Of a DNA stretch of 64,000 bases, positions 1 through 45,904 are shown in pieces. Source of the stretch: Ailanthus altissimus (lineage: Eukaryota; Streptophyta; Magnoliopsida; Sapindales; Simaroubaceae); contig OX327703.1 in assembly GCA_946807835.1 (NCBI GenBank), forward strand, positions 503,501 through 567,500, in the 5' to 3' direction. Under the pieces are notes generated by a model. That model was given only the letters and a program-made list of their open reading frames with translations. It did no database searches and was not told where the DNA came from. The stretch's first letter is position 1. Every line of letters begins with the position of its first letter. Made by a program: the position numbers and the translations under genes.

Positions 1-378
1 GCAGAATAATCTTTTCAATGAAAGAATAGTAAGAATATAAATATAATATAATATAATATCAACAAAAAAATGTGAGTAGATTATTCAATTTTGTATTTTT
101 TTTAAAAACTTGGATGTGATTCGATGATTGGTCCTTGAAAAGCATGAGATGGGGGCAGATTTTATCCAAGTGTTGATGCATTACGTGCCATCTCTTAATA
201 TACATATACTTATTAGTTATACAAGTGTACATTTCCAATAAATTGCTAATGCATATTTAAATGGTATTATGTAATGTAACATTATAGACATTGTATGATT
301 TGAAGGAGTTCAGATCTAATTTAAAAGAGTTTAGATAAGAGCCCTCAGTTGACCACACTGAGATATATAAATACTAAG
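1..378. other. AT-rich sequence, no gene recognised
   Basis: No coding frame, RNA gene or mobile-element end that I can support is visible. The stretch runs into the repeat-like block that follows. Confidence 0.5.
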
Positions 379-2226
379 TGTTGGCACAATTAATTGTTAG
401 TTGGTTATAATGCTCAGCGAAGATTCAAGAGTTGGAGCCTTGTCTATAATAGGACATAGACCCGAGAATATACAAGTAATTGCATAGTTGTAAAAGTTGC
501 AATTAGGTGCTAGAAAATGTTTGTTGCGCAAGTATATTCTCGAATATTATCTATGATCTATTTCTGCCGATATGGGTCTGTCAGTAGATATCTTTATATA
601 TAAATTAGCATATGTCGTACATATAGCATATAGATGGTCGTTCCTAGTCGACTGTGAGCTTGGAGCTCGTATTGACATATGAGTATCCAGTTAGGACTGG
701 ATATAAGATAGACTCACGAGGGCCTTCGATAGACACCCTATGTAAGCTGTCAACGGAGGGTCATCTCAAGTTGAGTAGTATATGTGTTCCTTTAACTTGA
801 GTGCCACGGTGGGCTTGTAAGTGATCCACCATACTTTAGTTGTACGCATGTCACAGACCTTTCATGGTGTGACCGCTGGGTGTCGCTGAGTATGGTCCAA
901 TGCTTATGGAGTCCGATGTATACATATATGGGATCCATCAGCTCGCATAGAGAGTTAGATATCTAGATGCTTCGAGACTGTATCTCAGAAAGTCTTGTGG
1001 CCACAAGCATTAATCCCGAGAAAGAGTTTCCGTTAAGGTGGAACAATATGGTAAAAGAGTTTGCATATATTGTTCAGTGAGATACAAGTCTGAGGATATG
1101 ATATAGATGAGCAATGGGGATTTGACGATGGTAATCTATATCCCCGCACATCTAGGATATCATGACAGAAGGACTATACGTATGCGTTGTGACCTCAATT
1201 TGTATGGTTTAATGCGCTAATTTGTAATATCCGTGACATGTGCATGAGGCATTACTCACAGACTTATAGAACACTTCTATTTGACGAATCGGACGTAGAC
1301 CTAAGAAGTCCTACGATATAAAGTGTACTCGTTGTGCACTGGGGTAAAGTACTAGATTAAATTATTTAATTCAGTAATATCCAATATTACCACGGGAATG
1401 CGTGTGTCTCTGTATTTAAACGTTAAATACAACAATTAGTCAATAATTATTATTTACTAATTGTATAATGACATATGGTGTATTGTGGATCCTTGATTAA
1501 GTTTACCCAAGTATATGTATGGTAAGACCCACTGGGGAGTAGACTTTGTAATTATTCATAAGAGGTAAAATGATTATTTCACACAAGAATTATTTAATTA
1601 TTAAATAATCATAAATATCATTAAAATATATTATTTTATAATATATTTTTTAATAATATAATATATATTTATGCATGTTAGTTGTCGTGCATTTATATAT
1701 ATAATTTTTTTTATTATTTTATTATTATTATTATATTTTATGGACAAATATCATTATTTTAATATATAATAATAATATTATTATAATAAAATGATATATA
1801 TATATGTGTGTATGTTTAACGGGAAATGAGTAAGAAAAAGGAAATTGGCAATTGTTACTTCAATTTCCATTTCGTTTCCTTTTAGAGAAAAGGAAAAATA
1901 CACACAATCGGTCATTTTAAGGGGTTATAGGTTAATCCCGTGTTAGATTAAGGAGTTGTTATTCTAACTCGCCAAAGCCACCGAGTTGGTGACTAGAACT
2001 ATAAATGGGTTGGTCTTTAGGCAGACTCCCAGGATACATGTGTAAAATATTACACGTTTCGGTAATTTCTTAACCCTTCAAATATATTAATATGATTAAT
2101 ATATTATTTATTGTGTTTATTATATTATTTTAATTATTCAGCATCATTAAATATGTATGAGATACATATTTTATACAATGAACACTAATGCATATGCATA
2201 CACCCATGTATATTTGAACTCCAACA
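379..2226. repeat. possible LTR-like repeat, unassigned
   Basis: The block begins TGTTGG and ends CCAACA, the short inverted ends usual for copia LTRs. It has no long reading frame and holds an extremely AT-rich patch at about 1590-1810. No target duplication is evident: the flanks read CTAAG before and ATTTA after. No second copy and no adjacent primer site were found. It could be a solo LTR that has lost its target duplication, part of an older element, or unrelated repeat DNA. The length of 1.85 kb would suit a long copia LTR. Confidence 0.25.
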
Positions 2227-2479
2227 ATTTAGGGGACCCCTTGATAATTATGGTTGACGTTTTGATCTAGAAAATAGAGGAAATGCTGCCAAAATTGTTA
2301 TAAATAACTATAACAAACATTAAAGTCAAAATAAAAAGATAACATAATAAGAAAAATGTAAACGAAATGATACATAAACTTTCATTATAAGTTTCCAACA
2401 ACGTACAACTTATCAAACAAGATAAAATAATAAGAAACAATTAAACCACCAAATAATACATCAACTTCGATAAGCAATA

Positions 2480-4875
2480 ACTGAAGGAGTTCTACATGTT
2501 TATCGATTATGTTTGTGTTGCTCACTTACTGTACGCATTCTTCGAAGACACATCTTTTTGGGATGGTATCTGTCTCTCTCTGCGCCTTCTCGACTATCTA
2601 CGTGCAACTGGGGGTTGTATTTGAAAATTTTGCACATCGTCTAGAATAATCCAAGTCGATGGATGGTCAACAAGATTTATGAATTCACCATATGCTGTCA
2701 ACAAAGTCTCAACTGTGTAATATCATGAACAAATATTGAGATATCATGAACAAATATTGAGATATCATGAACAAAGATTGAGATATCATGAACAAAGATT
2801 GAGATATCATGAACAAAGATTGAGATATTGTAATCTGACATGTCTACAAATAGCCATTGCACGGACATATGGCAGTTGGTGAAACTCGAATTTCTTACAC
2901 TACATGTCTTCATCACCATATCAACTATTATGTTCCTAGTGCCATCCTTCATAATAAACTTCGAGTCATCGGCTGGATTGACTGCCATTCTCATATTTTG
3001 ATCCTTGTACTTCCACACTTTATTATGGGCCCATATAGTTAACTCAGTGATTATTTTTTTTGCAGCCTCTCTTCTATAATACTACAAATTATGCGTTAAC
3101 TCTCACATCCATTCAGCTAGTGCAATTATGGGTAGGGAATGTGCAGATTTTGCCACTACATTGATACTTTTTACAATATTGGTGGTCGTAATATCATACT
3201 TCAAATGTACCCACTGATCTGGCCCTTTTGACACAACCAACCTCCTCTTCTAAATACTGTGCTGCCTCAGGTTTTATGCCTTTCATTATTTAATTGGATT
3301 TGAAAATCACACAATCGATATGCTTTTGTAGTGAAAAAGTATGAGCTTAGGAATTCATCTGTCTTCTTCTTTCTAGTAGAAAGCTTGAATTTTATGATTA
3401 AATTACTCTTCAAATAAAATATACATACCTTCATAGTATGCATTTGGAAATACTTTCTTGATGGCCTTCTCAATGCTTGCATATTGATCTGATACAAATA
3501 CTGGTGTAATACTATCACCAATCACACCCCTTAGTTTCTCCATAAACCACTCTTACGATGAATCATTCTCAGAATTGATAATTCCCCATACAACTGGATA
3601 AATTTAATTATTTCTATCCTTACAAATAGCTACAAATATACAACCAAGATAAGGGCCTTTTAAGAATGTAACATCTACAGTAATGACCGGTTTTATAGAT
3701 GTGTGAAAACCTCGAATATAAGCACCCAATGCTATAAAAAAAACTATAAGAAGTATCTACTATCATCATGCTTCAAATGAGTGACAATACCAGGATTCTC
3801 CTTTTCTATCATATAGCAATAAGACAGAAGTAGTCTGAATGAGTCATTAGTAATCCACTATCATCACCTTCAGTCTATTGGCATATGTAATTTTATTCTT
3901 GATTATATAAGTAATTATTTGACTCTTTACCTAACGATGACCGTCATGTAATTAGTCTAGTTGACATGTATGCTCCTTGTCAATTCTTCGGACAATGAAA
4001 TATTTTCGAGCATCCGTGGATATGGCACGAACTCGCCACTTACACCTTTCATCATTACATTCTGCTTCAAACATATCTTTCATAGACCTAAACACCTTGA
4101 AGCTCCAATTGTTGTTCAATGCATGTATACTGAGAGCATTGTATATTGCTTTCTTTTTAGGAAATGACTTTCCAACCACTACTTCCCCAATTCCTGAACA
4201 TGATGCTCCATTTGCAGAACTCAAGTTAAAAACTAGTATTGGAGGGATAAACTGAAATGAGTTTTGTGGGTGAACAATATTGTTATGTTCAATTATTGGT
4301 GTTGAACATTAATTACTAGGTTCTTCATTCTGATATTCTAACATGTCTCATTGGGCTCTCTCTTTTAGATCATTTACCATCTCCATGATTATCTCCATGA
4401 GGCGGGTTATCATTATATATAGGTAGAGAAATATTGTAGTTGTATGGCGTGTTAAATGGGACGTCCATATATGGTAATGTCAAGTCTATACTACTAACAT
4501 GGTTTACTACCATTTGTGGACATAAAATGGGTATGTGGCTGTCATTGGCTCTCCACAGGAACTTGTGGAATCTTATTACAATTAACTAGTCTAAGATTCG
4601 TATTAAAATATAATGGTATAAAAGCCTATTCTATTAACTCCAAATAAAAATTGCACTTCCTGATCACTCTGGATTATCAATGGTATAATACTCATTCCAA
4701 TTGTTGGCACTAATATTTTCATTGAGACATTATACTGCTAAGAATTCACTCCAATTTTACAGCTTACTAAGTTCTTAAGTTGATCATAAGTCACATCACC
4801 AGGAACCCTCATAGCAACTTTTTGGTACCCAATATATCTCTCTTTGTCATTATTGAAACTCTCCCATCTTCTCAA
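2480..4875 (-). pseudogene. decayed MULE (MuDR-type) transposase
   Basis: Read on the minus strand, several frames together give the order of a plant MULE transposase. The N-terminal PB1-like part is at about 4870-4660 (reads VPGDVTYDQLKNLVSCK, then a stop). The MuDR DNA-binding region is at 4224-3952 (AECNDERCKWRVRA, ending in HTC). The catalytic region begins near 3700 (VITVDVTFLKGPYLGC, with the first acidic residue). The transposase core follows at about 3540-3420 (TPVFVSDQYASIEKAIKKVF). A basic C-terminal tail lies near 2650-2550. Stops and frameshifts separate these pieces, so no functional protein can be made. The terminal inverted repeats of this element were not identified. It probably had no relation to the neighbouring DAPB gene beyond inserting near it. 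Confidence 0.8.
2720..2826. repeat. five-copy 21-bp tandem repeat in the MULE tail
   Basis: The unit atatcatgaacaaatattga (21 bp with the next base) occurs five times head to tail. The first two copies have AAATATTGAG and the next three AAAGATTGAG. On the minus strand the unit is a multiple of three and encodes repeated ISIFVHD. It looks like replication slippage inside the dead transposase. Confidence 0.9.
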
Positions 4876-15062: not shown

Positions 15063-15107
15063 GCCAAAGGACAATGAAAGAGTTCGGGATGAACTGGAGA
15101 AAGCTGT
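15063..15107 (+). pseudogene. left half of a host exon split by Athila
   Basis: After a TTTGTGCAG acceptor the sequence reads, in one frame, PKDNERVRDELEKAV. The reading is cut by the Athila element, whose 5-bp target duplication GCTGT is 15103-15107. It continues at 27527 after the element. I do not recognise the protein. The phase agrees with the right-hand half but not with the best frame of the piece upstream, so the gene may have been broken before the insertion. Confidence 0.4.
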
Positions 15108-16663
15108 TGTTTACGCTCAAAATATAACGCGGCTATCGCAGTATAGATTGAGGTGTCGATCCCACGAGGAAGCTCTTGGCAAAATAAGTCAGTGAAGTAA
15201 AATATTAAAGCAGTAGCAAAGGGTTAATTGATTTAAACGGATGAGATAGAATTGTCTATGAATTGAGGAAAATGTCTTATGATGATTTAAGCAAGGCTTT
15301 GAGAATCACAATTATGCTTTATAAATCTACTCTATACTTTGATTCGATATTTATAACTCAACTGAAAGTTTCACATTCCAAACAATCAATCGGAAGGTAT
15401 GTAATATATAGCACATTTGATAACTCATGTATTTGATTTAGTTAAACTCTTTGCAAGCATTAACACACATCATGTTATTTATACAAGTTATCTAAGATCG
15501 ACAATATATCATTTTGACAATATTGCAGTAAAAGATTAACTTGAATATCAAACATTTATTGCCCTTACATGTTATCCAAGATCGACAATATATCAAATTG
15601 ACAATACTGCAGTAAAAGATTAACATATAAAACAATATAACCAGTAACAATTATAAATCAACATGAATCACATAAGAAAAGCATGACTGAACATATATGA
15701 GACATGAGAATTATAACTTCTGGATTATAGAAAATAAAATAGATAAGAGTTTAATCAAAACCAAACTTACAACATTTATAGCTCTTGACACCGAATCAAA
15801 GCATGAAAGTAGATTTACTACACATAAAAGTTCATCTCTTAGCCTTGCTAGAAACTCTAGCCTAAATTACAATACATGTTAATGAGAATAAAAGAAGAGA
15901 GAAAATTGTTCTTTAAAAACGTCCTAAGGGTCTCCTTATATAGGCAATGAATGGACATATGTCATGGATGACATCAATCTTCAATAATTTTAAGTCAATA
16001 ACTCGTGTATCCACTTGCAGCACGTTTTTGATAATGTAAATGATCAATTCAGCTTCTGCGGCCGACATGAAAGTTGTAGAATTTTGACTCTTCTTTCCAT
16101 AGGCACTGATTTCATGCAAATTGGATGAGTATCCAATGAGATATGAGCAAAATTCCAAAGATACACCAGAATTCGGCCAACAATCATTTTACCCACTTGC
16201 AATGCGATTTGGTCCATGATAACGGCTGATTTGGACTTTACCATAAACATACGAGTTGTTGATAGTTAAGTCAGAAATTCAAAGCTTCAAGAATTATACC
16301 AATTGAGTACGTATTTTGGGAGATACGGTCCAAATACGTGAGTTGGGTCAAGCTGGGTAAGAGTTGTAGTCCGATTCTGTTGTATCTCAATTTTTGGCCC
16401 ATAACATGTTGGATTTGGCTTTTCCACTATTCTTCAAATTTGTGTAAGATTGAGTCATGTTGCACCAGGTTCAAGAAATTATTCATTTCGATTTCTACAT
16501 TGAGAGTTATGTCCAATTTACCTAAACCTGTCCAAATAACATTCATTAATCACAATTTAAGGAGAACACTTTATTTCAAGCTAAAAATACACAAAATACT
16601 AAAATTAGTGACATTAAATGGTGATTGAATCTTTTAACAACATGCATTTTCATGTGTTCATCA
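15108..16663 (-). repeat. Athila 3' LTR
   Basis: 1,556 bp, aligned without gaps to 25966-27521 (constant offset 10,858). I count seven substitutions, at left-copy positions 15187, 15852, 15870, 16004, 16184, 16282 and 16469; all but one are transitions. Small reading frames inside it are shared by both LTRs and have no recognisable protein. Confidence 0.95.
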
Positions 16664-16676
16664 CAGCCCCCAACCA
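16664..16676 (-). promoter_or_regulatory. polypurine tract of Athila
   Basis: On the minus strand GGTTGGGGGCTG lies immediately before the TGATGAACAC end of the 3' LTR. That is the expected place for the plus-strand primer of reverse transcription. Confidence 0.75.
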
Positions 16677-17802
16677 GCTTATTGCTAGTCTCTAGCAATT
16701 CAAGCGTAAATAGAATATGCAAAACTACATAAGCACTTCTATCAAAACGTCAGTTCGAGATCACTGTTGCTATCATGGTTTTTTCAATTACAACTTCCAT
16801 AATTTGTGTGTGTGTGAACTAAGCCATAACCATCTAACCACAAACCACAATAGATATAGCCTTGAGAATTTCTCCAAGTAAAAGCCTCAACTCCATATCC
16901 TCACAGGTGTATGACTGTTTAAAAGGTTAGGACTTCTCTTATGGAGTTGGAAAACAGTTAAGCACTCAAGAAAAAGTCAATTTTAAGGACAGACATATAA
17001 ACTAACATTGATCCGAAGATAGGAAAATTATTTGTTTAAAAATCAATTATTCATATCATACGTCAACTTTAGAACTTTAATTGGCTGGTGAGAACAATAC
17101 AATTATAACTTGGTGAGAAAACTGTTTTACAAGGTATTTGTCTTCTAAAATTGAATGAAGACTTTATTAAACTGAATTGCTTTTTTTTTTTTTTTCTTGT
17201 TTTTGGTACTTTTGTGTTTTTTTTTTTTTTTTTTTGAAGAATACAAGGAAGCATTACAAAGGTTTCTCACCAAATTATATTATGCACAAATGTAACCAAC
17301 TTATCCCTTAATTCAAATAATATCATTCTAAACAAAAATTAACCAATTCAAAGGATCAATGAAAGTTCATAAGCTGTTTTCTCAACCTTTCCACTTACTC
17401 ACAAAAGATATGTGAGATTAGAAAAATATATACTTAAACATGGAAATTCTCTTGGCTATATAAATTGAATCATCCATCTTACCACAAGGCTTAGCATTGT
17501 GCTCAAAACTATTTTGGAAGTCATTCTTTAGTAACCTAGATAGAAATAGTGACTCAACCTAATCAATTCTGAAATCATACTTAGGCAGAAAAGCAAATTC
17601 CTTTATACAAGAATTACCAAGACTACAGGCAGTAAACGACAATGCATGGAATATAAAACAAAATAACAAAAAGTTAGTTAAAATGCATTTCAAAAGTTAG
17701 TACTAAAACTCCTTACTCTGCCATTCTAATTTGACCTAGAATGCGTCTCAAGAGTTCAAGAATGAACTCTTTACTCTGCCATTTTAATCAAATGTCGGAC
17801 CA

Positions 17803-17806
<4 letters not shown>
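16677..17806. other. Athila 3' non-coding region
   Basis: Lies between the LOG-like gene's 3' side and the polypurine tract. It has two T-runs (near 17182-17196 and 17219-17235) and no coding region I can support. A CTTTACTCTGCCATTTTAAT-like stretch occurs twice about 56 bp apart near 17713 and 17769. Confidence 0.5.
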
Positions 17807-17834
<28 letters not shown>

Positions 17835-17897
17835 GCAAAATGCAACGTATGTCTACTATCCTCCCCCCAAACCAGATGAAACATTGTCCTCAATGTT
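17807..17897 (-). promoter_or_regulatory. internal purine tract, palindrome and A-run
   Basis: On the minus strand, downstream of the LOG-like stop, CATTGAGGACAATG forms a 5-bp-arm palindrome (17884-17897). It is followed by GTTTGGGGGGAGG (about 17860-17873), then a run of about 28 A (17834-17807). A purine tract after ...GAGGACAATG is a feature I remember from Athila/Tat elements and may act as a second plus-strand primer. The A-run could be a relic of a polyadenylated transcript or simple slippage. Confidence 0.5.
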
Positions 17898-18031
17898 TAA
17901 ATAGAAAGAGATAAAGTATAGGAGACATTACCTGAAACGCCAGTTATTTGAAAGAAACAATCCTGAGAGACACTTAAGCAAATATAAACTAAAATGATGG
18001 TACTGATAAATAAATAAATAAAAAGAAAAAT

Positions 18032-18679
18032 TTACAAACGGAGTGTCAGATCCAATTTTCGCTTGTTAAGGCTCACTGACCAATCGATCCGAGTTATTGC
18101 TGGGTCAGGTTCGTAGGTAACTGCCTGTAATTTGTTAATCAATTCATCCGCCTCAGTAGCAGAAACCAGGATCTGTCGCGCCGAATGTGAAATAAAATTC
18201 TGTTCCACAGCTTGATCAAGAAAACAAAGTAAGCAATCAAAATAGTTATTAACATTCAACAAACCTATGGGTTTTCGGTGGATATTCAGTTGGGCCCAAG
18301 AGACAATTTGAAAAATTTCTTCCAAAGTACCAAAACCACCTGGTAAAGCAATAAAAGCGTCTGCATTGCACAGCATTCTGGCTATACGTTCATGCATGGA
18401 TGAGACTTGTAATTCTTCCCCTATTGTTTTCCCGGTCAGGTTTCCCACGGCCAAAGCTGTAGGAATAATACCTAAAACTTGACTTCCTCCTAAATGTGCA
18501 GCTGTTGACACACACCCCATTAGCCCAAGGCTACCTCCTCCATAAATCAAATGAATTTTTCTTACAGCTAATGTTTTTCCTAGATTGTTTGCTGCTTCTA
18601 CGAACACTTTACTCTCCCCAGGACTAGATCCACAAAATACACATATATTTCGAAATTGTCGAACTTGGGTTTCCTCCAT
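18032..18679 (-). CDS. LOG-like cytokinin nucleotide phosphoribohydrolase inside Athila
   Basis: LOG enzymes hydrolyse cytokinin riboside 5'-monophosphates to active cytokinin bases plus ribose 5-phosphate, in cytosol and nucleus. This ORF is uninterrupted and intronless. From the ATG at 18679 it encodes 215 aa, a normal LOG length; an in-frame ATG at 18748 would add 23 residues, but the TATA box lies inside that extension. Numbered from 18748, motifs are ICVFCGSSPG (35-44), YGGGSLGLMG (69-78), MHERIARM with the conserved Arg (118-125), LPGGFGTLEE (135-144, the family signature PGGxGTxxE), and WAQLNIHRKPIGLLNVN (151-167). The C-terminal EPDPAITRIDW recalls the LOG10-type branch. Host LOG genes usually have several introns, so capture through a spliced RNA is likely. 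Activity is not proven. Confidence 0.92.
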   Translation of the reverse strand: MEETQVRQFRNICVFCGSSPGESKVFVEAANNLGKTLAVRKIHLIYGGGSLGLMGCVSTAAHLGGSQVLGIIPTALAVGNLTGKTIGEELQVSSMHERIARMLCNADAFIALPGGFGTLEEIFQIVSWAQLNIHRKPIGLLNVNNYFDCLLCFLDQAVEQNFISHSARQILVSATEADELINKLQAVTYEPDPAITRIDWSVSLNKRKLDLTLRL

Positions 18680-18731
18680 ATCTACTCTCACCTTTATCTC
18701 AATATATGAAAATGAAGAAACTGAGGTGCTG

Positions 18732-18739
18732 TATTTATA
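18732..18739 (-). promoter_or_regulatory. TATA box before the LOG-like gene
   Basis: On the minus strand CTATAAATAC contains a consensus TATAAATA, 53 bp upstream of the ATG at 18679. Initiation about 30 bp downstream would give a leader of roughly 20-25 nt. This suggests transcription independent of the 5' LTR and supports the inner ATG as the start. Confidence 0.55.
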
Positions 18740-18994
18740 GAGTGCCAAATGACAATAATGATTATGGTAACCCGACAGTTTGTCAAAAGAGAGTTAAAAA
18801 TAAAACACAAAAATTTAAACATAATGACCCGCATGCATTATTGAACAAAAAGATTTGAATTTAAGACATCTACATGAGTAGCCCTACTATTCATAAAATA
18901 AAGTTTGAAATTAAAACACATGTATTTACAAGTAGTTGTGATTGTGGCTCACATCTTCCTCTGGTTTTACGTCCAGTAACGGCTTAAACGCCCT

Positions 18995-19543
18995 CTATGG
19001 GTCGGGGATAGGCTTCCCATCCAATTTTCTTATAAATTGGCAAACAGGGTCTTTTAGAGTCAGATTCCCGAGACTATACCGTTGATGTTCATTTTTGAAT
19101 TTGTTCCATAAATCGAGAAGTTCACGTTGCACGAGCCCACAGGGATGCGTCTCAAGAGTCAATAGGATATCATCCAAAGACTCCTTACTCAGTCCATCCT
19201 TAATGAACTGAATTTTATCTTCTCGATTTCTAGATACGAATCCTAAAGAACGACAACTCCGATTACAATTCCATCGAGCACATTTATGACAGACTTGTAA
19301 CCTTTTTGCTCGTCGCCTTTTGGCATAAGAGCTTCTTCCAAGACCAGGCATATGAGAAACAAAATCATTTTCAAACTCACCAGACAACCGAACCTTGGCT
19401 TCAATTAACCAACGAAGGTCCACAGGGATATTACCCAACATCAATAGCCTTAGTCTTTCACACCGTGCTTTGTAAATCTTAAGTAGAGCATTTTGAGGAA
19501 ATAAAGGAAAACGTTTTTTAAGGTTGGCAAGAATGCGATCCAT
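18995..19543 (-). CDS. basic cysteine-rich protein resembling viral NABP, inside Athila
   Basis: Intact 182-aa ORF between pol and the LOG-like gene. Residues 1-60 are helical-looking and Leu/Arg-rich. Residues 69-81 are a basic block (GRSSYAKRRRAKR), followed by Cys85, Cys88, Cys93 and Cys97 (CX2CX4CX3C), a plausible zinc site, and then RNREDKIQFIKDG. Basic GRSxYAxRRRA followed by CxxC is the layout of carlavirus-type nucleic-acid-binding proteins (Pfam Viral_NABP, also in related flexiviruses), several of which bind nucleic acid, suppress RNA silencing or act in the nucleus. Those proteins are shorter, and their second Cys pair is spaced differently. Residues 120-182 have no match I recognise. 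No retrotransposon gene of this kind is known to me. The start is the only suitable ATG; a TATTAAA lies 68 bp upstream (19617-19611). Confidence 0.75.
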   Translation of the reverse strand: MDRILANLKKRFPLFPQNALLKIYKARCERLRLLMLGNIPVDLRWLIEAKVRLSGEFENDFVSHMPGLGRSSYAKRRRAKRLQVCHKCARWNCNRSCRSLGFVSRNREDKIQFIKDGLSKESLDDILLTLETHPCGLVQRELLDLWNKFKNEHQRYSLGNLTLKDPVCQFIRKLDGKPIPDP

Positions 19544-19782
19544 TTTGAAAGAAAGAAAAGAGATGAATGCACAGTTTGAGGGACAGTTTTTAGGGAACTG
19601 AGAAACCGACTTTAATAGTCACGGAGTACCGTATCCGCCACTTGACCGGGAAATAAAATCACACTGAAGAAAAAATAAAAAGAAGAAAATAAAGTAAAAT
19701 AAAATGTGCAAGAAAATAAAAGAAAGTCAAAAGATAAAATATAGACAAAATATAAAATATGGTACAAATAGATTGAACCTGA

Positions 19783-22700
19783 TCAATCACGATAGACAGG
19801 ATCCACAAGAGGGATCTCGCCTAGGTACATAGAGTCGTTTACCTTTTCCACGTAGCTTTTTAGCCGCTGTCCATTCACTTTGAAAGTCCGTCCATCAGTG
19901 GGGTCTTCTATTTCAACAGCACCATTAGGAAAAACATGTCTTACCATAAATGGACCAGTCCATCGAGATCTCAACTTTCCAGGGTGTAAATGCAATCGAG
20001 AATCATAAAGATAGACCCGTTGATTTGGCTCAAAGTGTTTCCTTGAGATCTGTTTATCATGAGCTACTTTCATTTTAGCTTTGTAAATTCTGGAGTTGTC
20101 ATATGCGTCATTTCGTAGCTCTTCTATTTCTGACAATTGTAACTTTCTCTGGAGACCTGCAGCATTCAAATCAAAGTTAAGGGCTTTGACAGCCCAATAA
20201 GCTTTATGTTCTAGCTCAACAGGTAAATGGCAAGCTTTCCCATAAACAAGCCGGTATGGGGACATTCCTAAGATGGTTTTGTATGCAGTACGATATGCCC
20301 ATAATGCATCAGAAAGGCGTAGAGACCAATCTTTGCGATTCGGGTTAACCGTCTTTTCCAAAATCTGTTTAACTTCTCTATTTGCTAGCTCGGCTTGTCC
20401 ATTTGTCTGTGGATGGTATGCAGTGGAAACTTTGTGAAGAACACCATACCTGCGCATCAAAGCTTCAAAAGAACGATTACAAAAATGTGTTCCTTGGTCA
20501 CTAACGATGACACGTGGCGTACCGTACCTAGATAACACATTTTCTTTTAAGAATTTTACCACAGTTGTATTATCATTAGTACGACAAGCTACAGCCTCCA
20601 CCCATTTTGATACATAGTCAACAGCTAAAAGGATGTAAAGATAGCCAAAAGATGAAGGAAATGGACCCATAAAATCAATACCCCAACAGTCAAATATCTC
20701 GATAACAAGAATAGGGTTAAGAGGCATCATATTTCTTCGAGATAAAGCACCTAACTTTTGACATCTTTCACAGGAACGACAAAAATTATTAGTGTCTTTG
20801 AACAAAGTGGGCCAATAAAGACCACACTGTAAAATTTTCACAGCTGTCTTCTTCATAGAAAAATGGCCACCGCAAGCAGCACTATGGCAAAAATTTAAGA
20901 CACTAGAAACTTCACTTTCAGGAATGCAACGTCTCATTATTTGGTCAGGACAATATTTGAAAAGATATGGATCATCCCAATAAAAGTTACGTACCTCAAC
21001 CAAGAACTTACGCTTATCTTGTGCACTCCAGTCAGATGGAAGTTCACCACAAACCAAATAATTTACGATATGTGCATACCAAGGTATTTGGCTTATAGCA
21101 AAAAGATGTTCATCTGGAAAATCGTCTCGAATGGGTGGCAAATCAGTAGAGTCAGTGAACTCAAGGCGGGATAGATGATCAGCAACAACATTTTCAACGC
21201 CTTTCTTATCTTTGATGGTTATATCAAATTCCTGCAAAAGAAGAATCCACCTAATTAAACGGGCTTTAGCATCCTTCTTAGAAAGAAGGTACTTAAGGGC
21301 TGCATGGTCAGTAAAAATAACAATAGGTGAACCAATCAAATAAGAACGAAATTTATCTAAGGCAAAAACAACAGCTAATAGTTCTTTTTCAGTAGTAGTG
21401 TAATTCATTTGAGCATCATTCAAAGTCCTACTAGCATAATAAACAACAAAGGGTTTTCCCTCCCTCCGTTGCCCAAGAACTGCTCCTACAGCATAATTAC
21501 TTGCATCACACATAATTTCAAATGGGAGGTTCCAATCTGGTGATTGCATGATAGGAGCGGTGGTGAGTTTGGCAATTAGTGTTCGGAATGCCTCCTCACA
21601 CTCTTGTGTCCATGTAAATTCTGCATCTTTTAGCAAAAGGTTACACAATGGTCTAGATATGGCAGAAAAATTTTGTATAAACCTTCTGTAAAAGCCAGCG
21701 TGTCCAAGAAAGGATCGGACATCTTTTACCGTTTTAGGTGTAGGTAATTTAGAGATTAATTCAATTTTTGCCTTGTCAACCTCTATCCTTCTTTCAGATA
21801 CAATGTGCCCTAAAACGATTCCTGAAGATACCATGAAATGACATTTCTCCCAATTTAGCACAAGTCCTTTTTCTTCACACCTACTCAAAACAGATTTCAA
21901 GTTAAGTAGGCATAAATCAAAAGAATTACCAAAAACAGTCAAATCATCCATAAAAACTTCCATGCATTTTTCAACCATATCAGAGAAAATACTCAACATG
22001 CAACGCTGAAAAGTAGCTGGTGCATTACATAATCCAAATGGCATTCTACGAAAAGCATAAGTACCAAAAGGGCATGTAAAAGTAGTTTTTTCTTGATCTT
22101 CTATAGCTATCTCAATCTGGTAATACCCTGAATACCCATCAAGAAAGCAATAAAAAGGATGTCCAGCTACACGTTCTAAAATTTGGTCGATAAAAGGCAA
22201 TGGAAAATAGTCTTTCCTAGTGGCTGTGTTTAACTTTCTATAATCAATACACATTCTCCAACCACTTACTACCCTAGTTGGAACAGGTATCCCATTCTCA
22301 TTTTCAACAACAGTAACCCCAGATTTCTTCGGAACTACTTGAGTTGGACTTACCCATTGACTATCAGAAATTGGGTAGATTATACCCGCATCTAATAGTT
22401 TCAAGACCTCTTTCTTCACTACTTCTTTCATTGTTGGGTTAAGTCTTCTTTGTGGGTCTCTACGAGGTTGGGAACCTTCCTCTAAATGAATTCTATGGGA
22501 GCATATCAATGGAGAAATACCTTTAATATCAGCTATGGTCCAACCTAATGCAGACTTATGTTCTTTTAACAATTTTATCAATTTTTTCTCTTGTTCAGCA
22601 CTAAGTTCAGAAGAAATGATGATAGGAAAGGTATCACCTGGTCCCAAGAATGCGTGTTTCAAACCTTTGGGCAGTGGAGAAAGCTCAACTTGTGGTGTCT

Positions 22701-25194
22701 CGAGGTTTGATGGTTTCGGTCTCTCCCTCTCTCGTGGCAACTCTTCAAAGTGTGGCTGCCAAAATCGAGTCCGTTTATCCTGTGAGTCAAAAATACTAAA
22801 CACATCAGTTATTACATCAGGATAATACAATTCTTCAAAATCAAAATTGAGAAGGTTTTTCGAAGAATCATAGCCATGATTTTTATAAGCTTCCTCCGCT
22901 ACAAGTGCGTCTATCATATATGAATGATAGCACTCGTCTTCTTCTCGTGGTTGTTTGCCAATGTTGAAAATGTTCACCTCAAGAGTCATATTCCCAAAAG
23001 ATAATTTCATTAGACCATTTCTGCAATTAATAAGAGCGTTAGCAGTGGCTAGAAAAGGTCTCCCCAAAATAAGAGGGATTTTTGACTCCATGTTAACAAC
23101 AGAATGAGTATCTAAAACAAGAAAATCAACAGGATAGTAAAATTTGTCAATTTGCAACAAAACATCTTCTACTATTCCCCGTGGTTTCTTGATTGATCGG
23201 TCAGCTAATTGTAGGACTACAGATGTTGGTTTAATCTCACCAAGTCCCAACTGCAAGTAAATAGAATAAGGCATTAAATTTACACTTGCTCCTAAGTCCA
23301 ATAAAGCTTGACCAAACTCATGTGTCCCAATTTGGCAGGAGATTGTGGGACATCCTGGGTCTTTATACTTGGGTGGTGTCTTTTGTTCAATCACTGCACT
23401 TATCTGTTCTGCCAAAAATGCAGTTTTCTTCACATGGTGTTTTCTTTTGATAGTGCATAAATCCTTGATGACTTTGGCATAAGTTGGAACCTGCTTAATC
23501 AAATGTAACAAGGGAAGATTAATTTTAACTTGTTTCAAATGTTTCAAAATCTCACCTTGAATTTCTGAATTTTTTCCAACCGGTCGAAGAGCTTGAGGAA
23601 AAGGCACTGGGATTGAAAACTTACTTTCGGGCTCTTTTTCCATTGTGGCCTCTTTTTCAAGGGGGGCATCTTTACTACTCGTAGATGTGTTAATTTCAGG
23701 AGTAGGCTCACTTACAATCTTACCACTTCGAGTAGTAATGGCATTGACTTCTTTGAGATTTTGAACATCAGAAGTAGAAACTTGTGCCATGAATTGTCCT
23801 TTTGGATTGGATTGAGGTTGAGATGGAAACTTACCTCGCTCTTGTACAGTTAAGGCACTGGTCAATTTTGTGATTTGACTCTTGATTTCTTTGTTTTCGT
23901 CCACCACCTGTGCAAGAATTGTTTCAAATTTTTTATTAGTCTTACTTTGTGCCTCCATAAATGCTTGTAATGTATCCTCTAAAGAATTTCTAGTTGGTCG
24001 TGCATTATATTGAGGTGCAACATAAGACTTGGGTGCTTGTTGTTCTTGTTTCCATTGGTTGTTGGCTTGTTGGTCAGATTTCCAACTGAAATTTGGGTGG
24101 TTTCTCCAGCTAGGATTATATGTTTCAGAGTAGGGTGAATAAGGCTTCTTGTACATCCCTAGGGCATTACATTGTTCCTCATATATCCCTCTCATCTCAC
24201 TATACGTGGGGCAATCCTGAGCTAAGTGTTCTGCTCCTCCACAGACAAAACAGACATCGTGTGACTCAACTCTAGCAACCGTGTGGGTGACCCTTCTATC
24301 TTTGGATTTCAAGGTCTCTAACTCCCTAGTTAAGACCTCTAATTGGGCTTTGAGGTTATCCTCTTCCCTAAGATGGAAAACTCCATTGGGTCGTGACCTA
24401 TTTGTGCTTTCAGCAATGCTAGGTCCAGTCCATGTATGGGCTTTTTCGGCTAAGTCATTAAGGAATTCTATGGCTTCCTCAGGATCTTTGTGAAGGAACT
24501 CCCCATTACACATCATCTCAACAAATTGGCGCTCTCTAATTGTGAGTCCCTCATAGAAATAACTAACCAAGCGCCAATTTTCATACCCATGGTGAGGGCA
24601 CAGATTTAGCAACTCTTTAAACCTTTCCCATGCTTGATATAAGGTTTCACTGTCTTTTTGGGAGAATGAAGAAATTTGTCTTTTCAGGCCATTAGTTTTG
24701 TGTTGTGGGAAGTATTTATTGAAAAATGCTTGGGTCATTTCTGCCCAAGTTCCTATAGACCTCGGCCTCAAAGAGTATAGCCAACTCTTTGCTTTGTCTT
24801 TCAAAGAAAAAGGGAAAAATTTAAGCCTAACAGTGTCTATGGCTTCAGGTTGGCTATGGAAGGTGGCAATTACCTCTTCAAATTCCCTAACATGTACATA
24901 AGGATTTTCACTATCTAGACCATGAAAAGTGGGAAGAAGTTGTATCATTCCAGGTTTAAAGTCCGAATGTGGTATGTTAGGTGGAAATATAATGCATGAT
25001 GGTGTGGCTGTGCGAGTAGGATGCAAGTAATCTTTGAGAGTTCTAACGGGATTTTCTTCGTGTTGGCTCATTGTGTTAGAATTACAAGATGAACTAGAAG
25101 GTGAATTCTCTTCACTTACAAATTGTGAGAGTGGTTCTAGTTCTAGTTCTAGTTCTCTCACAAATCTTCCTCGTTTGTCTCTAGGTCGATGCAT
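19783..25194 (-). CDS. Athila gag-pol polyprotein
   Basis: One uninterrupted frame encodes capsid, protease, reverse transcriptase, RNase H and integrase. The frame stays open back to 25383, but its first 63 residues are a low-complexity hydrophobic run from A/T-rich leader. I take Met64 (ATG at 25194, [11 protein letters not shown]) as the start, giving 1,803 aa. Numbered from 25383: gag with [13 protein letters not shown] near 240-255; zinc knuckle [14 protein letters not shown] at about 378-391; protease [12 protein letters not shown] near 694; RT with FMDD near 1144; RNase [12 protein letters not shown] near 1350; integrase HHCC finger at about 1500-1545; and the D, D, E residues in [15 protein letters not shown] and GQAELANRE. 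All key residues that I checked are present. The frame ends 239 bp before the cysteine-rich ORF. Confidence 0.95.
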
Positions 25195-25278
25195 ACATCC
25201 TAATTTTTTTTTTTTAGGAAAGAAATGCTTAAGGAAAATTAAGAAGTGGAATAAGCACAACAAGAAATAGAAATAAGT

Positions 25279-25825
25279 TAGGTGGTAAGACCAACCATGA
25301 AATATAAATACAATAACTAAACAAAAGACTATAAAATACGAAAAAAAAAAGTACAATAAATAAATAATAAAAAGAAAATACAATAAGTAAATAAATAAAA
25401 GGTTAGGCGGTAGAACCGACCATAAAAAGAAAATACAACATATTAACTAAAGTAAATAAAGTGCAATAAATACGTAAAAGAAAATGAAAATAAAGTACAA
25501 TAAAAAAAAGTGCAATAAATAAATAAAGTACAATAAGAAATAAAGAAACTAAGTTAGGCGGTAGAACCAGCCACAAAATAAAAAGAAAATACAACAAATT
25601 AACTAAAAAAAAGTACAATAAATAAATAAAAGAAAGTGAACGAAGTTAGGCGGTAAAACCAGCCATTAAAAAAAAAGTGCAATAAATAAACTAAAGAAAA
25701 TAAAGTGCGATAAATAGATAAAAGAAAATAAACTAATTAGGCGGTAAAACCAGCCATTAAGATAATATAAAGTATAACAAATTAACTAAAGAAAACAAAA
25801 TAAATTAGGTGGTAGAACCAACCAT
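25279..25825. repeat. six dispersed hairpin repeats in the Athila leader
   Basis: A 20-bp unit of the form TAGGYGGTARRACCRRCCAY occurs at about 25279, 25404, 25554, 25647, 25738 and 25806. Copies are separated by 50-130 bp of A-rich DNA. Each can pair with itself (GGCGGT with ACC.GCC) around a 3-nt loop. They lie upstream of the gag start in the 5' untranslated leader. Copies vary in ways that often keep a pair (GGYGGT/ACCRRCC). Packaging, dimerisation or translation control are possible roles; none is shown. Confidence 0.8.
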
Positions 25826-25941
25826 GAATAATAAATAAATTACAACAAAGGAAATAAAACTAAGAGTTTACAAAGAAAAGAAAATATACAAAGTTACCAC
25901 TTTAGTATTTATAATCGCAACCGACTTTCGCTTAGTGTGCT

Positions 25942-25959
25942 TCCCCGGCAACGGCGCCA
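25942..25959 (-). promoter_or_regulatory. primer binding site for tRNA-Asp
   Basis: The plus strand reads TCCCCGGCAACGGCGCCA, identical over 18 nt to the 3' end of plant tRNA-Asp including CCA as I remember it. It lies six bases inside the 5' LTR. It primes minus-strand cDNA synthesis and fixes the element's direction. Confidence 0.92.
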
Positions 25960-25965
25960 AATTTT

Positions 25966-27521
25966 TGTTTACGCTCAAAATATAACGCGGCTATCGCAGT
26001 ATAGATTGAGGTGTCGATCCCACGAGGAAGCTCTTGGCAAAATAGGTCAGTGAAGTAAAATATTAAAGCAGTAGCAAAGGGTTAATTGATTTAAACGGAT
26101 GAGATAGAATTGTCTATGAATTGAGGAAAATGTCTTATGATGATTTAAGCAAGGCTTTGAGAATCACAATTATGCTTTATAAATCTACTCTATACTTTGA
26201 TTCGATATTTATAACTCAACTGAAAGTTTCACATTCCAAACAATCAATCGGAAGGTATGTAATATATAGCACATTTGATAACTCATGTATTTGATTTAGT
26301 TAAACTCTTTGCAAGCATTAACACACATCATGTTATTTATACAAGTTATCTAAGATCGACAATATATCATTTTGACAATATTGCAGTAAAAGATTAACTT
26401 GAATATCAAACATTTATTGCCCTTACATGTTATCCAAGATCGACAATATATCAAATTGACAATACTGCAGTAAAAGATTAACATATAAAACAATATAACC
26501 AGTAACAATTATAAATCAACATGAATCACATAAGAAAAGCATGACTGAACATATATGAGACATGAGAATTATAACTTCTGGATTATAGAAAATAAAATAG
26601 ATAAGAGTTTAATCAAAACCAAACTTACAACATTTATAGCTCTTGACACCGAATCAAAGCATGAAAGTAGATTTACTACACATAAAAGTTCATCTCTTAG
26701 CCTTGCTAGGAACTCTAGCCTAAATTATAATACATGTTAATGAGAATAAAAGAAGAGAGAAAATTGTTCTTTAAAAACGTCCTAAGGGTCTCCTTATATA
26801 GGCAATGAATGGACATATGTCATGGATGACATCAATCTTCAATAATTTTAAGTCAATAACTCATGTATCCACTTGCAGCACGTTTTTGATAATGTAAATG
26901 ATCAATTCAGCTTCTGCGGCCGACATGAAAGTTGTAGAATTTTGACTCTTCTTTCCATAGGCACTGATTTCATGCAAATTGGATGAGTATCCAATGAGAT
27001 ATGAGCAAAATTCCAAAGATACACCAGAATTCGGCCAACAACCATTTTACCCACTTGCAATGCGATTTGGTCCATGATAACGGCTGATTTGGACTTTACC
27101 ATAAACATACGAGTTGTTGATAGTTAAGTCAGAAATTCACAGCTTCAAGAATTATACCAATTGAGTACGTATTTTGGGAGATACGGTCCAAATACGTGAG
27201 TTGGGTCAAGCTGGGTAAGAGTTGTAGTCCGATTCTGTTGTATCTCAATTTTTGGCCCATAACATGTTGGATTTGGCTTTTCCACTATTCTTCAAATTTG
27301 TGTAAGATTGAGTCATGTTGCACCAGATTCAAGAAATTATTCATTTCGATTTCTACATTGAGAGTTATGTCCAATTTACCTAAACCTGTCCAAATAACAT
27401 TCATTAATCACAATTTAAGGAGAACACTTTATTTCAAGCTAAAAATACACAAAATACTAAAATTAGTGACATTAAATGGTGATTGAATCTTTTAACAACA
27501 TGCATTTTCATGTGTTCATCA
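25966..27521 (-). repeat. Athila 5' LTR
   Basis: 1,556 bp, 7 differences from the 3' LTR. A minus-strand TATATAAGGAG (near 26790-26800) is the probable core promoter of the genomic transcript. Transcription from it runs leftward through gag-pol. Confidence 0.93.
26790..26800 (-). promoter_or_regulatory. TATA box of the Athila 5' LTR
   Basis: The reverse complement reads CTATATAAGGAGA, a good plant TATA box inside the LTR. It is followed about 30 bp later by the presumed transcript start. The same sequence occurs in the 3' LTR near 15932-15942. Confidence 0.6.
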
Positions 27522-27526
27522 GCTGT

Positions 27527-27761
27527 ACACATTATATGGAACTATAGGTTACCTTCACCTAGAGTAAGTAATACCATTTACATTATATTCAATGTCTTTG
27601 TAATTTTTTTTCTTCACAGCACTCATTGTTTCTAAATGACATTATTCTATATCTTGCAGTGTGTTGCAGTTGGTGCTAATGTTGAGCATGAGTTGGTTTC
27701 TGCTCTTCAAGCGTCTGTCTTCCTAAGGGTTATTATCACTAAGGTTGGGAAAATTTTATAA
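27527..27761 (+). pseudogene. right half of the split host exon and a following exon
   Basis: Continuing from 15107, the exon resumes at 27527 and ends at 27563 before GTAAGTAA (reads HIIWNYRLPSPR across the junction). A second exon-like piece begins at 27660 after TTGCAG and reads CVAVGANVEHELVSALQASV, ending at TAA 27759-27761. The two halves share one phase. I do not recognise the protein. Since the Athila copy now separates the halves by 12.4 kb, the gene cannot be expressed normally unless the element is spliced out. Confidence 0.4.
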
Positions 27762-28535: not shown

Positions 28536-28945
28536 TGTTAGACTAACTTAAAGTGATCTAAACATGTTTGAAATAATTTTAAAAGTATATAGATTAATAC
28601 GGACTTTTAAAAACAAATTAAACATACCTCCTGTCATTGAATTCATTTTTTAACAATTTAAAGAGATGATTAAGCCCTTCTAAATTTTTTCAATCTCCAC
28701 TAATAGCACATGTGTGTCATAGAATAAGATTGAATGATTTAAGGACCTAATCAAGTATTCTATTTATAGGCATTTTTTTCATAAAAAATGTCATCTTATG
28801 TTCATGAATATGAGTTAATTATTTTACACCTAATGAACATTATCTTTGAATAATGAATAATAATGAAGTTAGTGGGAATGATAAAAGATGTTAGCCATAA
28901 TGTGTTTATACTTAATATTAGGTATTACACCTAATACATTTATCA
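28536..28945 (-). repeat. copia A 3' LTR
   Basis: Starts TGTTAGACTAACTTAAAGTG and ends AATACATTTATCA. It is paired with 34553-34961, with many substitutions between them. Confidence 0.85.
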
Positions 28946-34552: not shown

Positions 34553-34961
34553 TATTGGACTAACTTAAGGTGATCTAAACATGTTTGAAATAATTCTAAA
34601 AGTATATAGATCAATGCGAAATTTCAAAAATGGATTAAACATACCTCTTACTATTAAAGTTATTTTTTAACAATCTGGATAGATGATTAAATTCTTTTAA
34701 ATCTTTTTAAGTTTTACTGATGACATATATTTGTTTTAAATAAAATTTGATAATTTAGGAATTTAATCAAGTATTTTATTCATAGGTTTTTTTTTTATTA
34801 AAAATGTCATCTATATTTATGAATATGGGTTAATTGTTTTACACTTAATGAACATTATTTTTGAATAATAAAAGATAATAAAATTAGTAAAAATAATAAT
34901 AAAATATTTATTATAATGTGTTTATACCTAATATTAAGTATTATACTTAATACACTTATCA
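34553..34961 (-). repeat. copia A 5' LTR
   Basis: Partner of 28536-28945. Begins TATTGGACTAAC (terminal TG mutated to TA) and ends TACACTTATCA. Confidence 0.82.
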
Positions 34962-36010: not shown

Positions 36011-36631
36011 TGTTGAAGCGGAAGCATACAAACAAATAAAATCATCCAAGTAATATATGCAGTTCGACAATTTGCTTACGTTCATGGCGGATTAAGATCA
36101 CACTCTTCTCTTATTATGAATCACAAGGTACTCACAAAGTATGCATTTTACAATAAAGATCATAAAGAAAACTCTCTCTTTTACTCTAAGGATTTTCTCT
36201 CACAAAGAACCATAAAGATTGTTGATGATCACTTAGATTATAATTTATAAGTCAATTGAGAGCTTTTATATAGGCTTTGGGACGTCATAAGTTTACCCTA
36301 AACGTGTGACAGTCATTTTAGAGAATCCTGAAGCAAGTGAAAGACGAAATAAGGAAGTTTCCTTATTTCGGGATACTGTTCCCGTCTCCAGCACCGCCGC
36401 GGCGCTGGCGTGCCCGTCTGAGTGCTACAGCGCTCGTCTCCTGGCACCGCGATGCTCAGGTGCTGAATTGGGCGCCGCAGCACCCACGCCTGGTCGCCAC
36501 GGTGCTGGCGCTTGGTGCGCCCTTCTTCGTTTTCCGCCTTCTTTTACGTCCGTCTTCGATCCTGGCGTACCCTACGCACTTGACTTGATCTTCAAATCAT
36601 ATTTTGACGACGTTTAATTAATATTCTCACA
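36011..36631 (-). repeat. copia B 3' LTR
   Basis: 621 bp. Contains a GC-rich block (about 36390-36560) rich in GCGC and GGTGCTGGCGC words, and TATATAAAAG on the minus strand near 36258-36267. It is shortened relative to the 5' LTR. Confidence 0.87.
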
Positions 36632-36700
36632 AAGACCCTCATTGATTCAAAATCATCCATAAAGCAACTCGATCTCTTATTTCTGTATCTTTGGTCACCC

Positions 36701-39700
36701 TCATAAAGTAGTGACTCCGGTTAAGTCCTTGCATAGAACGAACTTAACCGAGGGCAGTGGCTTAGTCAACATATCAGCAGAGTTTTTACATGACGTTATC
36801 TTTGTCAGACTAACTTCACCACTTTGGACAATTTCTCGAATGTAATGGAGCCTAACATCAATGTATTTCGACCTCTTCTGGAACACTTGATGCTTGCTTA
36901 GGTGTATGGCACTCTGGCTGTCACAATATACACCGGTGTTCATATCTTCACTAGCCAATATCTTTGCACATATGCCTTTTAACCATACGGCCTCCTTGAT
37001 AGCTTCACCAACAGCTATGTACTCTACCTCTGTGGTAGAGAGTGTAACCAAATGCTATAGAACTGATCTCCAACACACACTACACCCAAACACTGTGAAT
37101 ATGTAGCCCATCAATGATCTTCTCTTGTCTAGAGCACTTGCATAATCTGAGTCTATGTACTCTCTTACCATTTCATTGATGTCCTCATCCCTCTTATATA
37201 TCAACTCGTGATTTGACATCCTATTGAGATATTTCAGAATCCACTTTATTGCATATATGTGATCTTTACCTGAATCTGCCATGTATTTACTCACCACACT
37301 CACAACATGTGCTATGCCTGATCTTGTACAAACCATTGCATGCACGATGCTCCCTACAACGCTTGCATATGGTACTTTATTCATCTACAGTTTCTCTTCT
37401 TCAGATGTCGGTGATTGTGCTACTGAAAGTCTGAAATGCATGGCCAAATGAGTAGAGACAGCCTTTGCGTTAGACATACCAAACTTCTCCAGAATTTTGA
37501 CTATATATCGCTTTTGAGACAAGAAGATAACATCTTTTCTTTCCCTCACAATATCCATACCTAAAATTCTCTTTGCTGCTCCCAAATCCTTCATTTCAAA
37601 CTCGCCACTTAACTGCTTTTTGAGCTTCTGTATTTCTTTCATATTCTTACATACGATTAATATATCATCGACGTATAGAAGCAAATACATCATCCCACAA
37701 CTTATGTTCTTGAAGTACACGCATCCGTCATACTTGCTCTTACTAAAGCCACAAGCCATCATAAAATCATAAAATCTCATATACCACTGTCTAGGTGATT
37801 GCTTTAACCCGTATAATGACTTTTTTAGCAAACAAGAATGATTTTTTTTTCCGGGCTCCTCAAACCCTTACAGTTGTGCCATGTATATCGTTTCTTCAAG
37901 CTCTCAATGTAGAAAAGCTGTCTTTACATCCATCTGCTCTAGATGTAAATCAAGGTTTGCACACATGGCTAACAAAATCCTAATAGATGTGTGCTTGACA
38001 ATTGGAGAGAATATCTCGTGAAAATTGACCCCCCCTCTAAGTAAAACCTTGTGCTATTAACCTAACCTTGAATCTTGTAGGTTTAATCCCCGGTATCCCC
38101 TCATTCACCTTATACACCCACTTGCACCCGACTAGCTTCTTTTAAGGTCTCTCCACCAACTTTCAGGTATTGTTCTTCCTAAGAGAACTAATTTCTTCTT
38201 CTATGGCATGTTGTTATTCTTTCTTGTTTTCACTCTTCATAGCCTCACCATGTCTTAGGTTTATCATACTCAAGAGTGTAAGTAGAATTAAAAGCATGAG
38301 CAACTAAATCTGCTTATGTATACCTGACTAGTGGGTTAATCATTCTTCTTAACCTATATCTGGCTAACTAGTACTCTTTAAGTTTCATCTCAGGTGGACT
38401 TTGAGGAACTCGCCAGTGTTCTTGGTTCATCTTCAATGATCTCCTCATTGATGCGTTGATCTGAGGGTATATTAGATCCACTTTCAGGCTCCATTTTAAC
38501 TTCTATTGACTCAAGTGCTGAGTCTTCCTTGAGCACAGGTTCTTCTTTCTCATCTTCTTGAGAGGTTTTTAGCATCGTCATCTCATCGAACACCACATCA
38601 CGGCTTATGATACTCCTTGGTGGTGTCAAGTCTTTACATCACACATTGTATCCTTTCACTCATTCAGGATATCCTATGAATACCCATTTGATATCTCTAG
38701 GTTTCAACTTCTCCTCCTTAACATGTACAAAGGCAGGGCAACCAAATATTCTGAGGTAGTCATACTTCAGAGAATTGTCAAACTATTTCTCTTCTAGCGT
38801 CTTGAAGTCAATTGCTGAAGAGGGACTTCTATTAATCAAGTAAGCTACAGTCACTATAGCTTCTCCCCAAAATGTCTTGGACATCTTTGCATTGGTAAGC
38901 ATGCATCTAACCCTTTCAAGTAAGGTCTTATTCATTCTCTCAATTACGCTATTCTACTATGGTGTTGATCTTACTATTCTATGCCTTGCAATCCATGCTT
39001 GGCATAAAACCCATTAAACTCTCTATTGCAATATTCGAGGCCATTGTCAGTTCTCAACCTCTTCACCATTTTGCCAGTTTGATTCTCAACAAAAGTCTTC
39101 TAAGTCTTGAATACTTCAAACACTTGATCCTTGCTCTTCAACACATAAACCCACACCTTTCTTGAATAGTCATTAATTAAACTGAGAAAATATCTAGCAC
39201 CACCATAAGTAGCTGTCTGAGCTAGTCCCCAAAGATTCGAGTGTATGTAGTCAAGAGTCCCTTTAGTTTTGTGCTAGCCGGTACTAAACCTTACCCTATG
39301 TGCTTTTCCAAGCACACAATGCTCACAAAACTCTAAGAGCTGGAATTTATCCTCACCAAACACCTTTTGACTAAATAACTCCTTTAGGTTTCTTTCGCCT
39401 AGGTGTGCCAGTCTAAGATGCCACAACTTGGTTTGCATACTCTCATCATCTACAGAGAATAGTGCAAAATCACTCATGACTTCACCCTTAAGCACATAAA
39501 CACCTTTGCACTTCTCTCCTCTCATCACCACTATGGAACCCTTCAAAACTCTTAAAATCCCTCTGTCGATCCTGATGGAACACCCATTCTGGTTTAGAGT
39601 CCCTAGTGAGATCAAGTTCCTCTTCAAGTCAAGAACATACCTAACATCTATCAATTCTCTCACTCGCCCATCATATAACCTAAGCTTAACATACTAATTC

Positions 39701-45569: not shown

Positions 45570-45904
45570 AAAAAAAATATTTTAACATTTAAATTAATAT
45601 TTAATTCAAAATAAGGAGTGCTAATGTATAGAGAATGTCTCAAAAATAATTAAGAGAGTAATAAATTGAATATTATTAATTAAATATTCATAACTATAAG
45701 GATATGAATATGAAGTATTGAATAATCAATGTGTTTATGAATTAATTGAATGAATTATGAGTTAGGTTGTTTGCTTATTAATAGTGTATAAATCTTGATT
45801 CGTGTCAAAGTCTCAGTCTGTATCAATATATGAATGCATTAATTCAAATTCTCATCAAATTATAAATTAGTGCATATATTTAAGTAAACATAAGTTAATT
45901 AAAA

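Follow-up and report, generated by a model that had tools for sequence, protein, structure and literature searches.

A LOG-family gene with an LxLxL tail beside a carlavirus-type zinc-finger gene in an Athila retrotransposon of Ailanthus altissimus

A complete Athila-type LTR retrotransposon in a 64,000-nucleotide stretch of the Ailanthus altissimus genome (hereafter the window; assembly GCA_946807835.1, contig OX327703.1, positions 503,501 to 567,500) carries two extra genes between pol and its 3' LTR, one for a LOG-type protein and one for a zinc-finger protein akin to the carlavirus NABP. On balance, we lean towards regarding the LOG gene, from sequence, as an old accessory gene that is dispensable in any one copy, has been retained over the long term, and probably encodes a cytokinin-activating enzyme whose tail binds TOPLESS; the enzymatic step, the binding to TOPLESS, a nuclear location, and any gain for the element are the parts of this reading that we infer. 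LOG cargo in plant LTR elements is as such already known. Steinbauerova et al. reportedly found, in 2011, two Athila-like elements with similarity to LOGL4. An account that cites this 2011 work (PMC9289625) reports a LOG (YgdH) domain in LTR-retrotransposon consensuses of Citrus sinensis, C. clementina, and Populus trichocarpa, so that an earlier, sequence-only reading of the window was mistaken in treating such a cargo as undescribed. The Citrus and Populus elements resemble that of the window in having a LOG-family domain inside plant Gypsy elements, whereas section 12 and other passages of that account mention neither a C-terminal LxLxL tail nor a carlavirus-type NABP, both of which are present in the window. 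What looks new is a LOG clade separate from those host LOGs that were sampled, the LxLxL tail, and the carlavirus-type NABP neighbour.

The features of the element are collected in Table 1. Its LTR termini are TG...CA, its PBS is of the tRNA-Asp type, and its age is presumably roughly 0.2 million years at 1.3e-8 per site and year, with slower tree rates making it older. A Pfam scan of gag-pol returned Retrotrans_gag, RT, RNase H, and the zinc domain and core of integrase, along with an Asp protease match that scores below the gathering score. The marks expected of Athila are present, namely the order gag-PR-RT-RH-INT inside the LTRs, a tRNA-Asp type PBS, and the 5-bp TSD GCTGT, although 5-bp TSDs are general and not specific to Athila (excerpt of PMC6317226). 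Neither a chromodomain nor a second RNase H (aRH) occurs among the Pfam matches of the element, which show one RNase H region; aRH is a mark of Tat, and structural marks separate Athila, Tat, and chromovirus elements (excerpt of PMC6317226). By such published marks alone, the element classifies as Athila (non-chromovirus, OTA), not as Tat or chromovirus. The leader between PBS and gag (25262-25863) holds six diverged repeats with the core TTAGGYGGTARRACCRRCCA, spaced about 70-150 nt. The insertion site may be an exon, since the flanks (15108-15107 and 27522-27720), when joined, give a short open stretch, RPKDNERVRDELEKAVHIIWNYRLPSPR, followed by a GT-like donor. Elsewhere in the window, direct repeats at 50461-51662 and 61827-63023 (77.9% identical, 11 kb apart) are probably the LTRs of an old element; those at 36062-36632 and 40803-41369 (84.6% identical) flank an ORF with a CCHC knuckle (39660-40151) and probably belong to an old Copia; and those at 28538-28945 and 34555-34961 (79.8% identical, 6 kb apart) are a possible old LTR pair. 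A 133 bp perfect tandem duplication occupies 45307-45570.

Table 1. Features of the Athila-type element, in window coordinates.
Feature	Position	Strand	Details
Complete Athila-type Ty3 LTR retrotransposon	15108..27521	-	12414 bp; LTR pair, TSD, coding domains
TSD GCTGT	15103..15107	.	One flank of element
3' LTR	15108..16663	-	1556 bp; pairs with 5' LTR
Purine-rich tract adjoining 3' LTR, GGTTGGGGGCTG	16664..16675	-	Sequence
Internal purine-rich motif ACATTGAGGACAATG...TTTGGGGGGAGG	17861..17877	-	Also present in L002
Outer limit of LOG cassette	17938..18907	-	970 bp here vs 96 bp in related LOG-less L002
Extra ORF 2, LOG-type protein, 215 aa, intronless	18032..18679	-	ATG 18679, stop 18034-18032
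C-terminal tail NKRKLDLTLRL, basic residues and LxLxL (EAR-type)	18035..18067	-	Clade comparison
TATA-box-like TATAAATA	18732..18739	-	60 nt upstream of LOG ATG; chance 0.044 in interval (first-order Markov shuffles)
Extra ORF 1, 182-aa zinc-finger protein, carlavirus NABP type	18995..19543	-	Pfam Viral_NABP, Carla_C4
gag-pol, single open frame	19783..25194	-	First likely gag ATG 25194; open to 25383
PBS TGGCGCCGTTGCCGGGG	25943..25959	-	Read from sequence
5' LTR	25966..27521	-	1556 bp; 7 differences to 3' LTR
TSD GCTGT	27522..27526	.	Opposite flank of element

The sequence-only reading had proposed an uninterrupted, intronless LOG frame at 18032-18748, with PGGFGTLEE, YGGGS, and the conserved Arg retained, in sense orientation between pol and the 3' LTR of a complete Athila element. 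The uninterrupted frame, its three motifs (the Arg being that of MHER), and its profile matches bear out the protein, and the LTRs, TSD, and coding domains bear out the setting. The frame exists on the minus strand only, the plus-strand translation being full of stops, and its proposed start gives way, as 18748 is a mechanical TTG start and the first in-frame ATG is at 18679. By profile and fold, the ORF belongs to the LOG family, matching Pfam Lysine_decarbox PF03641 (E 1.1e-38), NCBIfam TIGR00730 (E 4e-50), and Arabidopsis At2g37210 (PDB 2a33; E 6.5e-66), with an AlphaFold2 prediction (mean pLDDT 85.5) whose best PDB match is again 2a33 (E 1.4e-22). The score stays below the cut-off of the equivalog model NF058542 (115.7 bits versus 300), which may or may not extend to plant host LOGs. 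The plant LOG phosphoribohydrolases At2g37210 and At5g11950 share with the element LOG the fold, PGGxGTxEE, MHxR, and length, at about 50-55% core identity. Structures 5zbk and 5zbj differ precisely at the second Glu of PGGxGTLEE, and we read 5zbk as an active-site mutant; the element LOG retains that Glu. The TATA-like box upstream may be a LOG promoter of its own, albeit a weak candidate.

In the same 939-Mb genome, 150 places were scored of 6438 first-look candidates for LOG, and all are 97-100% identical (16 with one stop), so the proviso that a single element copy might carry LOG does not hold. A search with NABP gave 4842 candidates, and the 150 scored are all 98-100% identical; a LOG-listed partner stands at the expected spacing at 97 of these NABP places and at none of the other 53. 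Misassembly of a host gene between the LTRs, which the sequence-only reading had named as a way to be wrong, is ruled out by the TSD and the 150 copies, and a host LOG caught between LTRs by the many-place copies with NABP at fixed spacing. A chance ORF is ruled out by the profile match, the fold match, and the genome copies.

The relationship of this protein to other LOGs was examined in a tree of 61 element-type sequences (the window LOG and 60 retained after thinning 114 of 120) and 45 host LOGs, with tail columns excluded. Here, element-type means the listed homologues of the window LOG, and an element-borne position was seen only for the window and its sampled copies. The element-type LOGs fall on one side of a branch (SH-aLRT 98) and the 45 host LOGs on the other (97). 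In this tree, which was built by a quick method and has long branches and a two-sequence bacterial outgroup, the element-type LOGs form a single old clade with a long stem, distinct from the LOG3/LOG8-like host LOGs sampled. The gene is intronless, as the earlier proposal of a captured host mRNA has it, but with such an old clade and long stem it was not captured recently from this host. Among the matches listed, tailed LOGs come from taxa that include Reevesia, Diplodiscus, Pterospermum, Populus, Melia, and Paulownia, and five of the tailed-LOG species, when looked up, belong to Malvales, Malpighiales, Sapindales, and Lamiales. Part of a LOG gene model from Xanthoceras resembles the polyprotein of the element (pairwise E 0.001).

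Across the 61 sequences, 15 of 215 columns are unchanged versus 0.11 expected under even scatter, with a mean of 7.5 changes per column. Glu121 changed once and Arg98 twice, whereas positions in the linker (186-204) mostly show 4-21 changes, with Trp200 at 1. Element-type LOGs that are 60-75% identical to the window LOG keep the catalytic motifs, the exact PGGxGTxEE being missing in 21 of the 120 listed, and such conservation is flattered since databases list intact ORFs. Both the catalytic positions and the tail leucines are constrained across families, and it is because of this constraint between distant families, together with the conserved tail, that a case for LOG function can be made.

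The tail escaped the sequence-only description. It ends in LDLTLRL and thus contains the LxLxL that defines the EAR motif, with DLTLRL where the SUPERMAN hexapeptide has DLELRL (excerpt of PMC6479872). An LxLxL ending is found in 97 of 120 element-type LOGs listed as homologues of the window LOG, by a query that included the tail and so has a small bias towards tailed matches, versus none of the 120 host LOGs listed for a LOG3+LOG8 profile, a sample that is LOG3/LOG8-like only. A basic K[KR]x[KR] occurs within the last 20 residues in 76 of the 120 element-type LOGs listed (66 of the 97 tailed ones); NKRKL, the corresponding stretch in the window, departs from this strict pattern. In the 61 rows, the leucines are retained at L211 in 55/57, L213 in 50/55, and L215 in 53/55, having changed 2, 5, and 2 times versus 7 for D210, 6 for T212, and 12 for R214, the contrast of L213 with its neighbours being small. 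Papers that contain both 'LONELY GUY' and 'EAR motif' exist. Since an EAR motif is reported to be insufficient ('An EAR motif is not sufficient' is a section title in PMC7446885), LxLxL alone does not prove TOPLESS binding. It is improbable, in our estimation, that LOG is purely a cytokinin-activating enzyme that stimulates division and has a tail serving structure or stability without binding TOPLESS. Such an enzyme would account for the intact fold and active-site motifs, and the predicted disorder of the tail (pLDDT under 50 at 212-215) is compatible with many roles; leucines fixed at every second position, where the residues in between vary, however, have the look of an EAR motif, down to the near match of DLTLRL to the SUPERMAN DLELRL. 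At the other extreme, the LOG fold might serve only to present the LxLxL tail, with cytokinin irrelevant. The tail does define the element-type clade, and pathogen proteins are known to hijack TOPLESS through C-terminal EAR motifs (excerpt of PMC7446885), but the rarity of change at Glu121 and Arg98 relative to the linker makes a pseudo-enzyme or adaptor very hard to credit. HaRxL21, one of several similar TOPLESS-binding effectors, is a secreted oomycete protein, whereas the element LOG is a retrotransposon-encoded enzyme and a candidate TOPLESS binder.

The second extra gene, between pol and LOG, was overlooked in the sequence-only reading. Its product matches Viral_NABP (E 5.1e-8, 33.6 bits, gathering cut-off 23) and Carla_C4 (E 1.6e-6, 28.4 bits, cut-off 20.9), models matched by 23 and 21, respectively, of 28 aligned NABP relatives, and CxxCx4Cx3C is present in 102 of the 120 relatives listed. 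Carlavirus and allied cysteine-rich/NABP proteins have both domains and, as in the element NABP, a basic stretch before CxxCx4Cx3C; unlike them, the element NABP is retrotransposon-encoded and 182 aa long, and its match is limited to residues 39-121. Its structure prediction is poor (pLDDT 53.5). Compared with its counterpart in L002, a related element described below, dN is 0.168 and dS 0.837, a ratio of 0.20 by NG86 (0.10 by YN00 and 0.30 by LWL85), which shows NABP evolving as a sequence under constraint; integrase has a saturated dS under NG86 and a dN/dS of 0.16 under LWL85. Between the LOG and NABP lists, with records of two sources entered under one, 8 pairs have equal contig size and source versus a null mean of 1.16, of which only 3 count because five contigs are too short for both ORFs; on those three, LOG and NABP occur together. 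LOG and NABP proteins and alignments set against viral contigs gave nothing usable, the one far match being L001. Viral cysteine-rich proteins of the NABP kind are suppressors of RNA silencing, and the chrysanthemum virus B member is also a transcription factor and causes hyperplasia (excerpt of PMC12172455). The literature found, with subscription papers mostly outside it, links no retrotransposon with a carlavirus-type NABP; in passages of PMC5967125 the terms occur apart.

Recent copies give a different picture from that between families. Two sets were compared, 40 copies chosen for their LOG protein score and 40 from among the 53 NABP places without a LOG-listed partner. The LOG frame is open in all 40 of the former and the tail NKRKLDLTLRL is present in 38, but this sample was dropped as a selection test because choice by LOG score favours few amino-acid changes, and the selection estimate instead gives weight to the NABP-picked copies. 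After weighting to the NABP list, the LOG frame is open in about 0.76 of copies and absent from 0.03, and LOG pN/pS comes to 0.85 in singletons and 0.39 in shared variants; with 68 copies taken together, the values are 0.85 (p 0.48 versus neutral) and 0.57 (p 0.10). Significant purifying selection on LOG was not detected among these 68 recent copies. The near-neutral pN/pS indicates almost neutral decay of recent copies once they have inserted, and the master lineages display at most weak constraint on LOG at this depth. In the comparison of copies that the sequence-only reading had suggested, values only weakly lower for shared variants thus stand beside near-neutral singletons and the spread of LOG-deleted subfamilies.

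Among the 40 NABP-picked copies without a LOG-listed partner, 5 have one shared deletion of ~140 bp inside LOG, and 4 have one shared junction lacking ~800 bp, with all of LOG gone, plus diagnostic variants. This LOG-less subfamily (L054, L067, L072, and L088), with its own diagnostic variants and a junction near 18835/18032, may represent a deletion or an older empty state. L002, a single locus from a profile search of genome contigs with the NABP alignment, shares 317 of 466 integrase residues and 141 of 182 NABP residues with the window; after the NABP stop the two share sequence, followed by 96 bp in L002 versus 970 bp with LOG in the window. It should be noted that L002 lies at 1-3330 on DAIEQH010000041.1, a Candidatus Nomurabacteria MAG in GTDB, and is apparently plant Athila DNA contaminating a reference genome. 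LOG is an optional module, because L002 and the LOG-deleted copies of the same genome do without it. It is not required in cis, because LOG-deleted subfamilies occur at several loci, and it is at best a trans-acting or optional aid, because they spread too; LOG-less copies may spread either by trans-help or unaided.

A rival reading is a LOG cDNA that was transduced and, with no benefit, is carried as a passenger by a successful element, its conservation reflecting young copies and intact-ORF databases: singletons are near neutral and the shared-variant signal is weak, LOG-deleted subfamilies spread, a related element lacks LOG, and LTR elements are known to capture genes (excerpt of PMC7264820). 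We nonetheless consider a passenger rather unlikely, as LOGs that are 60-75% identical keep catalytic motifs, tail leucines are fixed where neighbours vary, unchanged columns are far above chance, and one element-type clade spans several orders. The tail and the NABP partner raise the case above plain gene capture, and the near-neutral copies and LOG-deleted subfamilies hold it back.

Under the preferred reading of an old, long-retained accessory gene, LOG would have diversified inside elements of several eudicot groups with its active site and basic/LxLxL ending kept. The LOG protein would be translated from element RNA, or from a short transcript that starts at a promoter by the TATA-like box; it would still cleave cytokinin riboside monophosphates, and its tail would bind TOPLESS-type co-repressors. 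Like its viral relatives, NABP might work inside the nucleus or target small RNAs, and the two proteins together could make conditions in the host cell more favourable to the element. Raised cytokinin might in this way aid transposition, as the sequence-only reading had proposed. Tentatively, and with some doubt, they may constitute a two-gene host-manipulation module, in which a nuclear LOG couples cytokinin activation to TOPLESS recruitment via an element-specific EAR tail and is joined by a silencing-suppressor-like zinc-finger protein of a kind that RNA viruses also have.

Extra genes of plant LTR retrotransposons are mostly without assigned function. Here, a recognisable hormone enzyme whose tail predicts a specific host partner stands beside a viral-type zinc-finger gene in a family of at least 150 near-identical copies, and the presence of LOG-bearing and LOG-deleted subfamilies side by side in one genome allows their success in transposition to be compared in a natural setting. 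If true, the reading as a two-gene module would mean that a retrotransposon manipulates the hormonal and transcriptional state of its host in the manner of a pathogen effector.
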